Shown here piece by piece: positions 4,554-10,150 of a DNA stretch of 64,000 nucleotides. This stretch comes from Microbacterium sp. YJN-G. GTDB lineage: Bacteria > Actinomycetota > Actinomycetes > Actinomycetales > Microbacteriaceae. The translations under genes and the position numbers were made by a program. The DNA is taken from positions 1-64,000 of the forward strand of contig NZ_CP060403.1 of NCBI RefSeq assembly GCF_015040615.1. Direction: 5' to 3'. Under the pieces are notes generated by a model, which was not told the DNA's origin, searched no databases, and saw only the letters and a program-made list of their open reading frames with translations. The first letter of the stretch is position 1. Every line of letters starts with the position of its first letter.

Positions 4554-5129
4554 TCAGCGCCACTCGACGCCCTTGATGCCGTGGAACTGCCAGCCGTCGA
4601 CGTAGCGGGTGTCGTAGATGCCGGTGAGGTAGTCGGTGGCTCCGGCGTCGCCGCCCTGCACCCATGCGTCGTAGAGCTGCTGCTGCTCGAACGGGGACAT
4701 GTCGAGGTTGCTGAACCGCTCGGCAACGTACTTCTTGTCGTTGGGGTCGGAGGAGGGGCCCTGCAGGGCGTTGATGCGGATGGTGCGCTGCCGGGTGGGG
4801 AGCTGCGCCTGTACGCGCTTGGCGAGCTGCCCGCGGCCGCGCTGGGTGGTCACGGACTGGCGGACGCGCTTGGTGATCTCCTTGGTGATCGCGGCACGCG
4901 GGTTCTGCGCGCCGCGGATCCATCGCTGGACGGTGCCCTGGGAGACACCGAGCTTCTTGGCGGCGAGGCCGGTCGCGATCGGGAAGCGGTCGCTCTTGCC
5001 GGGGAAGAGGAACCGGAGCATGGCGCGGGTGTCGGGGTGCTCGGCGGTGTAGTCGGGGATCTTCTGCCCGGTGAGGCCCTCGAACATCGCTTTCATCTGG
5101 AGGGCTTGGGCGCCCTTGCTCAGTGCCAT
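4554..5129 (-). CDS. Tpg-like telomere terminal protein
   Basis: A 191-residue protein, the size of Streptomyces Tpg (about 184). Tpg is covalently attached to the 5' ends of linear actinobacterial replicons and primes end patching. Shared layout: an N-terminal helical part with RAMLRFLF, a helix-turn-helix (LAAKKLGVSQGTVQRWIRG, about residues 53-71), a basic stretch of Arg/Lys/Gln (about 75-110), and a C-terminal part with LYDAWVQGGDA and DGWQFHGIKGVEW comparable to the LFDA..AGA and HGLEVEF region of Tpg. The ATG overlaps the stop of the upstream Tap-like gene by one base, as expected for a tap-tpg operon. Identification is by pattern recall, not alignment. Alternative: a generic plasmid HTH regulator. 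Confidence 0.6.
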   Translation of the reverse strand: MALSKGAQALQMKAMFEGLTGQKIPDYTAEHPDTRAMLRFLFPGKSDRFPIATGLAAKKLGVSQGTVQRWIRGAQNPRAAITKEITKRVRQSVTTQRGRGQLAKRVQAQLPTRQRTIRINALQGPSSDPNDKKYVAERFSNLDMSPFEQQQLYDAWVQGGDAGATDYLTGIYDTRYVDGWQFHGIKGVEWR

Positions 5130-8100: not shown

Positions 8101-10150
8101 CGCGGGCCGGGAGCTCAGATTCGCGCAGCGCCACGGTGCCGTCGATCCATGCCTGACGCAGCGCGTCGCGGTCTGTGGTGGGGGCGGGCATTGCATAGAT
8201 GTCGGAGGTCTTTGCCACGTCCACGTCGACGTCGACCGCGCCGCCCTTGGCGATCGCGCCTGCGGCGTGTACGAAGTAGTCGCCGGTTTCGGCGGTGCGC
8301 CATCCGACCGTGGTGTGGACGATGCTGTTGTTCCGCGGCGGTTTGATCGCGTTCATCGCATCCCACGCCTGATCCGCGCCGCGGCGGCTGTTCGACTCGA
8401 GGAACCCCGGCCAGGGCATCGCCTTTGACCATGACCCGTCGCGGATCTGGTCTTCGGTGTACTTCAGGGTGACCGACTCGGTCTTGAACTGGCCCGTGTC
8501 CGGGTCGCGGGTCGGGTAGCCGCGGTCGTTCGGAACCCACCGGGAGAACTTGATCACGTACAGGTGCGGGGGTCGGGCGATCTCATTGTCGGTGCCGTCG
8601 TCCTCGATGGCGACGGTCTGGACCTCCGCCCACCCGCGCATGACTCGGAAGTACTTGTCGTCCTCGTCGCCAGGGGTGTGCTTGATGAGCACAGTCTGCC
8701 CCTCGACGACGTCGTAGTGGTTGCCCTGGATGAACGGGCGCTTCTCGGGCTGGTCCTCGGGGTTGTCGTTCCCGAAGAACACTCCCCCGTTGCCGCCTCC
8801 GCTGCCGGTCTGTGTGCGGGGTGAGGCAGGGGTGATCTCGACGGTCTCAGCCGGCGGCTGCTCGTCGACGTCGGGACGGATCGCGACGATCGACGAAGCG
8901 ACCGCCTGGGGCACGTTGAGGCCCGCGACGATGTAGGTGTCGCGGGCGATCCGCGCACCCTCGGCGACCGCGGCCGCGTACTCCTGCAGGGCGGTGCGGC
9001 CGCGGTCGCCGAGCTGCTCCGCATCCAGACCCGGGTCGATCGCTTTGATCCGTTCGAGGCGGTTGAGTGACTCCCGCGCCCATGCCTCGGCGTGCTGCTC
9101 GGAAGTCGCCCGGTCCTGCTGGCTCTGCTCGAGCTGTGCGGTCGCTTCCTTGAGGCACACCGCAACGCCGGTGCGCCCGTGCACGAGCTTGTCGGCCTCG
9201 GCCGCGGCGACGATCGCACGGGCGTCGTCGACGGTGATCTCGACGAGCGTGGCGACCGTTCCACCAGCGTCCATGTGGTCGGTGAAGTCCGACTTGCGAT
9301 CGTCGAGGTTGGGCAGGAAGATCCGCGCCGGGATGCCGAGCTCGGCCAGCTGCGCACCGACACCCGCAGCACGCTGTGCGCCGGCGGGATCGTTGTCGAC
9401 GACCAGGTTGACCGAGGCGCCCCGGAAGTGCTCGAGCAGCTCGGCGGGGAAAGCCGTAGCGCCGCCAGCGTTCGTGGTCGCGGCCAGGCCCTCGGCGATC
9501 GCGCTGTCTGCGTCCTTCTCCCCCTCGAGCAGCCACACACCCCCGCCGGCGGCGACCGCTGCGCGGATCGCGGCGAGGTTGTAGAGCAGGGGGGCGAAGC
9601 CTTCCGGCTTGCGCTTGACCCACCGGCCATTGGCGCCGCGGTAGCTCTGGGTGAACCGCTTGTGCCGCTGTCCGTCCAGGGTGGTCTCTTCGCGGTGGAC
9701 CCGCTGCAGGACGACGCCGCTGTCGTCGACGTACTCGTAGACCTTCACCTGGCGCCACGTCGCGCCCGTCAGGTCCGGGGTCTTGGGGGCGAGCTCATCC
9801 TGCGTCAGCCGCGGCGGCAGCGAAGGCCGCTTCGCCCTTGGGGTGCGCTGACTGGTGCGGCGGTCGGCGGGCAGTGGCGCGTCGAACAGGTCACTGACGG
9901 TCAGGCCGATCGCGCCGCACACGTCACGGAGGTCGAAGGCATCGCCGCAGCCGAAGCAGTGCATCATCACCTTGCCGCCGGCCCGGTCGTAACGGATGCT
10001 CAGCGACGGCATCGCGTCACCGTGCACGGGGCACAGCGCCATGTGCTGGCTCCCGTTGCGGCGAGGCTTCCACCCACCGCTCTCAAGCGCCTCGAGAACG
10101 CGGTCCATGGAGTTCGTAGCCGTCGCCGTGCCGGTGTACTCAAGCGTCAT
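5129..10150 (-). CDS. Primase-helicase fused to telomere-associated protein (Tap) domain
   Basis: A 1673-residue protein. Residues about 40-70 hold a CHC2 zinc finger (CPVHGD... and CFGCGD). A Toprim-like fold follows at about 200-300 (WLLEGEKDADSA and LVVDNDPAG with acidic metal ligands), which is a DnaG-type primase arrangement. An ATPase at about 660-1000 has a P-loop GGFASYKTS near 707 and a Walker B VIVDDFAPDG near 763, followed by a winged-helix-like module ending HRVWDIPLSAL. After a Pro/Glu-rich linker (about 1130-1180) the C-terminal about 490 residues resemble Streptomyces Tap: IYLTMEAALALGLPLDTL, VGVGAPTH, FEAWYKRIRDA, GRWPVAIEKDTVVYTSD. Tap binds telomere overhangs and recruits Tpg. 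I start at the ATG at 10150; a GTG at 10177 is possible. Likely the replication initiator of a linear replicon. Confidence 0.72.
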   Translation of the reverse strand: MTLEYTGTATATNSMDRVLEALESGGWKPRRNGSQHMALCPVHGDAMPSLSIRYDRAGGKVMMHCFGCGDAFDLRDVCGAIGLTVSDLFDAPLPADRRTSQRTPRAKRPSLPPRLTQDELAPKTPDLTGATWRQVKVYEYVDDSGVVLQRVHREETTLDGQRHKRFTQSYRGANGRWVKRKPEGFAPLLYNLAAIRAAVAAGGGVWLLEGEKDADSAIAEGLAATTNAGGATAFPAELLEHFRGASVNLVVDNDPAGAQRAAGVGAQLAELGIPARIFLPNLDDRKSDFTDHMDAGGTVATLVEITVDDARAIVAAAEADKLVHGRTGVAVCLKEATAQLEQSQQDRATSEQHAEAWARESLNRLERIKAIDPGLDAEQLGDRGRTALQEYAAAVAEGARIARDTYIVAGLNVPQAVASSIVAIRPDVDEQPPAETVEITPASPRTQTGSGGGNGGVFFGNDNPEDQPEKRPFIQGNHYDVVEGQTVLIKHTPGDEDDKYFRVMRGWAEVQTVAIEDDGTDNEIARPPHLYVIKFSRWVPNDRGYPTRDPDTGQFKTESVTLKYTEDQIRDGSWSKAMPWPGFLESNSRRGADQAWDAMNAIKPPRNNSIVHTTVGWRTAETGDYFVHAAGAIAKGGAVDVDVDVAKTSDIYAMPAPTTDRDALRQAWIDGTVALRESELPARVIAPLLGHSWTAPVLPGPILLHLVGGFASYKTSHSRLAVQYFAPNLTHNTKGLISGAAGGSTAIGLQRTLSAISNVPVIVDDFAPDGNASDAIRRISTLGRTVFNGIGRIRGKQRGGAEADRPILASIITSGELSAQGSADSRIVNLPLDPATLKNGGEIFGRLESRRARHARALIGSSLVQWTAARRQQLVKDFTEAEEDSEHRLCTQDYWRKTIPSQNGHAGLHDRLVQSAVVLDRGIVIMLMMLRDLDVITAEEAKDFYAWARAGIAEAISLQDSSASDPAEQLMEYLREAIANGNAHLAGMDGAVPEDASSLGWTDQSTGMQPQWRPNGQRVGIIRDQRLYLFPTTAIAVARQMSQRADEAFSDTKTSLSSSMLSHGWLLVDGAGKRSVVRRTGRSMQHRVWDIPLSALTGSNPDEPSGGPTSGDGGAGPDDSPVDFPALFDAPTVDEAPTPTQPAEQTPQSAPPAPAEPEPEPEPEQPAAADSPVPTAPARPSTTTSAEDFRAPLGVLHTDGLWLSTGELITIRGQLEHAGQLAQLATDLNLGTRINQGTNGARKTERGQIYLTMEAALALGLPLDTLPESTDSDYGKLLREATKGHPFITLATEAGFSLSGDGSMTGSIDVWREDNRGIGAHIALLPAQDFRFISTILDGDPDPATIAHRLGKFTAALKFPYRSSAGTTGTKLMRALLPRDKHDEIYYPQDRPTPVKDQMMAEGDFNWQRKLFGDEIKQKWAHGFDRGGSYLAAASTEVGVGAPTHYDGPLQFTKATNKPGYWLITAPEPGSWLMPDIFAAQGIVREGFAGSQIWVSTPTLELASEMGLELEIHEAWLWDRKAKVFEAWYKRIRDARTTLDTTDVDDQAARDLLKIVYAAAIGMLDYRGDHDTLAVWAPHRHDMIVAKSRANIIRRVLANAERTGRWPVAIEKDTVVYTSDHIDPLEAWPGDPAWFGRGLGQYKYEGSDPLAHHAEFLNGDGSYKGKKYLEELI

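Follow-up and report, generated by a model that had tools for sequence, protein, structure and literature searches.

The Tap part of a primase-helicase-Tap fusion on a Microbacterium plasmid is a predicted divergent phi29-type DNA polymerase

The closest described systems to the locus reported here are the telomere proteins Tap and Tpg of Streptomyces and a fusion protein encoded by the Arthrobacter plasmid pAL1. According to the available part of a study from 2015, Streptomyces Tpg and Tap alone carried out protein-primed synthesis of 13 nucleotides (nt) and deoxynucleotidylation of Tpg in vitro, and the authors, who stated that a polymerase motif is absent from Tpg and Tap, regarded these proteins as a new class (PMC4513846). 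For pAL1, a "novel replicative enzyme" is the subject of the title of Kolkenbrock et al. 2010, the experimental identification of the terminal protein is that of another title, and the accessible text of a publication from 2020 concerns the characterised Arthrobacter Tap and terminal proteins in pAL1 (PMC7276702). In this study, we analyzed bases 1-64000 (the window) of contig C2 (148,596 bp) of Microbacterium sp. YJN-G, the genome of which comprises 3.62 Mb in two contigs. The window contains a gene for a fusion protein of a primase, a helicase, and a Tap-like domain, followed by a small Tpg-like gene. All features of the pAL1-type fusion were found, i.e. CHC2/Toprim, helicase, Tap domain, and an adjacent gene for a helix-turn-helix (HTH) protein. 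The pAL1 fusion of Arthrobacter sp. Rue61a (1707 amino acids (aa), 41.5% identity over 93%) has the same domain order, is annotated as telomere-associated protein, and is encoded next to an HTH gene near the end of a plasmid annotated as linear. We take this protein to be the replicative enzyme of the 2010 title, and the gene adjoining it is presumably the terminal-protein gene of pAL1. The abstract of 2010 reportedly gave the C-terminal region no function, whereas this region of the window protein is here predicted to have the fold of a protein-primed polymerase. We consider it likely that the module replicates the ends, and probably also the interior, of a linear actinobacterial plasmid, with a divergent phi29-type polymerase in its Tap part. 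Direct support comes from domain homologies, the polymerase fold of the predicted model, invariant candidate catalytic residues, a conserved order of the genes, and hairpins of telomere type at the left contig end, while catalytic activity and division of labour of the fusion are what we infer.

The C-terminal part of the fusion matched the NCBIfam model telomere_Tap (NF047542) with an E-value of 7e-36, in agreement with the Tap similarity proposed in an earlier note on this DNA. Because the score of 124.2 bits is far below the equivalog cut-off of 600 bits, this part is termed a Tap-like domain and not a Tap equivalog; three Streptomyces Taps scored 1112-1152 bits. Structure prediction of the Tap part with AlphaFold2 (AF2), as suggested in the note, yielded a model with a predicted local distance difference test score (pLDDT) of 92.3, for which phi29 polymerase was the top match in Foldseek and in VIA, with a viral library as a further line of evidence. 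The fold predicted from this model is that of a phi29-type protein-primed DNA polymerase, a relation that the earlier note had not seen, and the predicted likeness to this family-B type extends over the whole polymerase. In a profile comparison with hhalign, 22 Tap domains (the window's, those of 12 other fusions, three Streptomyces Taps, the pRL2 protein described below, and five database proteins) were aligned with eight phage protein-primed polymerases at an E-value of 4.3e-4 over 204 columns, within which motifs A, B, and C occurred in order. An earlier Tap profile, to which the column-shuffle control applies and not to the 22-domain comparison, scored 27.05, compared with 25.6 for the highest of 150 column-shuffled controls and 14.6 for the reversed profile. 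The first two Tap profiles gave weak matches (E 0.26 and 0.026), global mode aligned just five columns, and the exonuclease half alone was aligned over 44 columns only (E 0.073).

Protein-primed family-B polymerases of the phi29 type are characterised by the motif forms Dx2SLYP (A), Kx3NSxYG (B), and YxDTDS (C). The key residues of motifs A and B of the phi29-type polymerase are kept in the Tap domain, and the letters around them have diverged. D1434, K1563, G1571 (motif B), and D1622 were present in all aligned sequences of two sets (48/48 and 19/19), which have three sequences in common, the window's among them, and K1652 was present in 48/48 and 18/19. The strands of the motif C hairpin correspond to positions 439-441 and 444-449 of the AF2 model. 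DVN (motif A) and K...GK (motif B) are common to Streptomyces Taps and phi29. What the Tap domain shares with phi29-type polymerases are the predicted whole-domain fold, the residues of motifs A and B, and the adjoining terminal-protein gene. Unlike the phi29 enzyme, it is without DTD in motif C, has apparently lost the exonuclease acids, is joined to a primase-helicase and, if Tap-like, would act at the ends of a replicon whose copying proceeds mainly from the interior.

Several findings weigh against our reading. Foldseek TM-scores between the Tap model and phi29 polymerase were only about 0.45 with a high root mean square deviation, the probability given by hhalign for the 22 Tap domains and eight phage polymerases was just 34%, and a polymerase was not found by ordinary sequence searches (Pfam, PHROGs, and PDB profiles): PHROGs gave 0 families for the Tap part, and the best match in one of the PDB profile searches was albicidin resistance protein (0.088). 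Since these resources are blind to the relation between Tap and the polymerases, this may explain why it was overlooked. Furthermore, a single invariant Asp replaces the DTD of canonical motif C, and its pairing conflicts, as the profile places D1622 on the first Asp of phi29, which we take to be D456 in the usual numbering, and the strand positions on the second (D458). Because of the single Asp, the Tap domain is called a divergent homologue working like a phi29-type polymerase, not a canonical member. Finally, the 13-nt activity belongs to the Streptomyces proteins and not to a fusion.

The loss of one Asp of the DTD could also mean that the Tap part has the polymerase fold by descent but is a dead polymerase, which only binds the telomere hairpins and tethers the terminal protein and leaves the chemistry to a host polymerase. 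Close to where the exonuclease motif is expected, the acid at model position 29 varies as well (D in just 41/48 and 11/19 sequences), and an older view cited in the available part of PMC4513846 likewise sees Tap as a tether with DinB polymerases acting. This explanation is nevertheless regarded as unlikely, since the key residues of motifs A, B, and C do not vary in the 48 and 19 sequences, which would be unusual for a dead enzyme, and since Tpg and Tap made the 13 nt in vitro without an added polymerase, as far as the accessible text goes (PMC4513846). For the Tap part as a divergent and active polymerase, a role in making primers would be consistent with the exonuclease acids having apparently been lost; in VIA, the N-terminal half of the Tap domain is aligned with that of phi29 polymerase, in a register that is not fixed residue by residue.

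The open reading frame (ORF) of the 191-aa HTH protein shares one base with the fusion gene (TGATG), as described in the earlier note, and by this overlap the Tap-like domain is encoded in an operon with a tpg-like gene. The likeness to Tpg claimed in the note held for the position of the gene; in the profile search it was weak and confined to the HTH (NF047541, 21.9 bits versus a cut-off of 90). The product is assigned as terminal protein because of the gene position, an alignment in which it shows 20-22% identity to three Tpg-like Streptomyces proteins encoded next to Tap, and the parallel with pAL1. Its AF2 model (pLDDT 90) has a loop at residues 125-135 between two strands. Streptomyces Tpg primes from T114 according to the available part of PMC3572947, and this threonine aligns with K132 of the window protein, with gaps making the register uncertain. 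A comparison of 15 diverse terminal proteins from the fusion lineage showed four invariant residues with a hydroxyl group (T20, T95, Y134, and Y176), and past residue 95 neither a Ser nor a Thr was invariant. In 17 closer proteins (model set), T20, T95, and Y176 are invariant, Ser or Thr occurs at position 126 in 17/17, and Y134 is present in 15/17, with a gap in P0066 and a lysine in P0076. With these counts, Y134 was dropped as the priming residue and kept as one candidate. S126 and Y134 are located in the same predicted loop near the site aligned with the Streptomyces threonine, and terminal proteins of the fusion lineage may prime from Y134 or S126 instead of this threonine.

The features of the locus are listed in Table 1. 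The fusion ORF encodes 1682 aa from a GTG; the 1673-residue frame of the earlier note is present when counted from the inner ATG at 10150 and lies on the minus strand, which the note had left unstated. The domains named there were recovered as well. The CHC2 finger was detected by the Pfam model Zn_ribbon_DnaG (2.2e-6) above its cut-off, and the Toprim motifs by the dnaG and PRK07078 models (5e-9), with Toprim_3 of Pfam remaining under its cut-off (0.0067); DnaG structures were matched weakly by the fusion profile in another of the PDB profile searches. In an alignment of 21 sequences including the window's own protein, the Toprim acids EGEKD (218-222, including E218), D261, and D263 are invariant, and so are K723 and D773-D774 of the P-loop ATPase, the P-loop of which is atypical (GGFASYKT). 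The Cch1 helicase model matched the window fusion weakly (0.022, residues 712-827). The peptides VGVGAPTH, FEAWYKRIRDA, and GRWPVAIEKDTVVYTSD all lie within the C-terminal part. Helicases of the DUF927/Cch type and Toprim primase-helicases resemble the N-terminal two thirds of the fusion, to which the fusion adds the polymerase domain.

Table 1. Features of the fusion locus and the left contig end in the window.
Feature	Position	Strand	Description
Left telomere	1-175	none	hairpin 1 at 17-31 (GCTGCGC centre), hairpin 2 at 44-57
Terminal-protein (Tpg-like) gene	4554-5129	minus	191 aa; HTH and C-terminal domain
Fusion gene ORF	5129-10177	minus	CHC2/Toprim primase, AAA+ (DUF927/Cch-like) helicase, Pro/Glu linker, Tap/protein-primed polymerase domain
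Tap domain, predicted divergent protein-primed family-B DNA polymerase domain	5132-6592	minus	about residues 1196-1682
Candidate motif C aspartate D1622	5312-5314	minus	EKDTVVY, beta-hairpin tip; phi29 CDTDSIH
Candidate motif B lysine K1563	5489-5491	minus	LLKIVYAAAIG; phi29 AKLMLNSLYG
Candidate motif A aspartate D1434	5876-5878	minus	FDRGGSYLA; Streptomyces Tap IDVNMAF; phi29 FDVNSLYP
Pro/Glu-rich linker	6593-6847	minus	about residues 1111-1195, limits by eye; read from sequence
Helicase-like region	6848-8710	minus	about residues 490-1110, limits by eye; atypical Walker A K723, Walker B D773-D774
Toprim primase region	9233-9751	minus	residues 143-315; NF005477 5.3e-9, primase-like model including Toprim
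CHC2 zinc finger	9938-10063	minus	residues 39-80; Pfam 2.2e-6; C49 and C77 invariant (21 aligned sequences)
Small conserved gene 5' of the fusion	10375-10647	minus	90 aa

Streptomyces Taps share with the fusion the homologous C-terminal domain, the same invariant residues in the three aligned, and the gene order with Tpg. The three Taps are proteins of 732-772 aa with an N-terminal HTH and without a primase-helicase match, whereas no HTH family was listed for the fusion (Pfam, E 1), so that the N-terminus of Tap is indeed swapped for a primase-helicase, as the note had proposed. The pRL2 protein of Streptomyces sp. 44414 (L052; 1100 aa) has a helicase (DUF927 1.7e-10, Cch1 2.3e-10) and a Tap domain, is followed by an HTH gene, and is without a primase match; it is a possible intermediate between Tap and the window fusion.

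In a tblastn search, the fusion matched 435 plasmid records, in eight of which at least 80% of the query was covered in one place. Among the best matches are plasmids A and B of Microbacterium sp. No. 7, Curtobacterium pC1c, Arthrobacter pAL1, and Rhodococcus plasmids, and the fusion also occurs on Glutamicibacter and other plasmids. A small gene annotated as HTH or hypothetical lies directly downstream in all 12 fusion-bearing records opened. Because of the 435 records and this constant neighbour, the set of features is not due to chance. The 90-aa gene upstream of the fusion is without a Pfam match (E 1); its product matched by blastp (E < 1e-6) eight of nine small genes at the same place, taken from nine of the 12 records. 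Further upstream, two neighbouring minus-strand ORFs, 11158-12201 (347 aa) and 12204-13298 (364 aa), were matched to the same ATP-binding gene of No. 7 plasmid A, with 37% and 25% identity, respectively; the latter ORF has a P-loop and a weak AAA match. With the Tap model at 1e-10, only the window's own protein was found in 150 genomes of the family, which is no measure of spread because this model is poor for the fusion. As far as the accessible text of a paper from 2022 goes, a phi29-like polymerase is present on the Curtobacterium plasmid pCff1 (PMC8929003).

These relatives also bear on the earlier note's own interpretation, in which the locus was a new kind of primase-helicase-Tap module with Tap as a binding protein without known fold. 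Fusion and gene order are real, but the same fusion is known from pAL1 and from Rhodococcus, Curtobacterium, Glutamicibacter, and other plasmids, and therefore the module is not a new kind. Also, the replicative enzyme and the terminal protein of pAL1 have already been studied, judging by the titles, and the predicted Tap fold is recognisable, so we give this interpretation hardly any weight.

The note had further considered the replicon linear and proposed to look for hairpins and inverted repeats at the contig ends. The left end is telomere-like; the two ends of C2 share no terminal inverted repeat (blastn of the first versus the last 3 kb, best E 0.092), which speaks against linearity. Hairpin 2 was found between positions 41 and 61 in all eight record ends of pC1c, both No. 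7 plasmids, and pAL1, and the motif GCTNCGC starts at 20-22 in seven of them, the exception being the tap end of pAL1 with a different hairpin at 15-33. In random 130-base stretches of C2 (n = 20,000), the frequency of hairpins of the first kind was 0.085%. The motif GCTXCGC is described for actinobacterial invertrons in the available part of PMC7276702. In five of seven related contigs, the end is no more than 12 bases from the left end point of C2, and in L022, one of these five, it is at the identical base; L021 and L022 are identical there and therefore not independent. Of the other two, L024 is covered up to a point 47 bases short of its contig end, and L025 has a different terminal sequence. 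The hairpin register serves as telomere evidence because DNA folding of the two C2 end stretches was not clearly better than that of shuffles (z -1.6, 14/200 shuffles as good; z -0.5, 57/200).

At the right end, the last 82 bases of C2 (148515-148596) are a 95% inverted near-copy of 134481-134564, 14 kb inward, and a hairpin-2-like sequence comes after this near-copy. Because the near-copy precedes the telomere-like sequence, this contig end looks like a junction and not a true end, and we read the arrangement as an assembly or exchange junction. Linearity thus rests on one end, and the plasmid is very probably linear, with the left end supported and the right one not. Parts of both arms recur in a Microbacterium paraoxydans plasmid annotated as linear, the record of which starts just outside the fusion and is without it.

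Among the 12 opened records, seven are annotated linear and five circular, and in four the distance between the fusion and the nearer end of the record is about 17-29 kb, which counts against a telomere module. The five circular annotations and a right end of C2 that is not a telomere copy would also agree with an enzyme for internal replication only, encoded on a circular plasmid whose telomere-like end is a contig artefact. We consider this very unlikely in view of left-end hairpins at most two bases from the register of the annotated linear pAL1, of the five of seven related contigs ending at nearly the same point, and of the small gene that follows the fusion in all 12 records.

Three further observations concern telomere-adjacent sequences. 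The No. 7 plasmids A and B (L028, L029, L031, L032) are annotated as circular and have hairpins near the pAL1 register at both ends, so this label may be wrong. At the right end of the related plasmid contig L023, 58 telomere bases are perfectly duplicated, which may be due to assembly. The ORF 744-1460 (minus), which adjoins the telomere in the window, matches genes annotated as SOS-response-associated peptidase, and its counterpart beside the tap end of plasmid B of No. 7 has 91% identity to it across 255 bases.

For a linear plasmid with a divergent phi29-type polymerase in the Tap part, the following course of replication is probable. The primase and helicase of the fusion would serve the replication fork. 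Once the fork has run off the end, the 3' overhang left behind would form the telomere hairpins by folding and be bound by the Tap polymerase domain together with the small terminal protein. The first nucleotide (C, provided that base 1 is the end) would be attached to a hydroxyl group of this protein, and the Tap polymerase would make a short stretch to be completed by a host polymerase.

What is new is the identity of the polymerase domain, not the fusion. In its accessible text, a survey from 2026 states that Actinobacteria are typically without family-B polymerases, and the word Tap never occurs there (PMC12926913); likewise, Tap, Streptomyces, and telomere never occur in the available text of a family-B survey from 2020 (PMC7544198). 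A description of Tap as a family-B polymerase was not found among the matches listed, most subscription papers and all bioRxiv preprints being outside the scope of the search. Because of homology, the polymerase identity should apply to Tap proteins generally. We are inclined to assume that the ancestor of all Tap proteins, among them those responsible for the linearity of Streptomyces chromosomes, was a protein-primed family-B polymerase of virus or phage type, that the Tap proteins are active enzymes, and that the lineage of the window has a single-chain primase-helicase-polymerase, i.e. a near-complete replisome. A hidden polymerase of the phi29 type would explain the DNA synthesis by telomere proteins of the Tap family, and with the predicted fold and the invariant candidate catalytic residues, the puzzle of 2015 becomes addressable by mutants. 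The predicted fold would tie bacterial telomeres to protein-primed viruses, with primase, helicase, and polymerase in one chain, and, if true, Actinobacteria would use a family-B polymerase at their telomeres.

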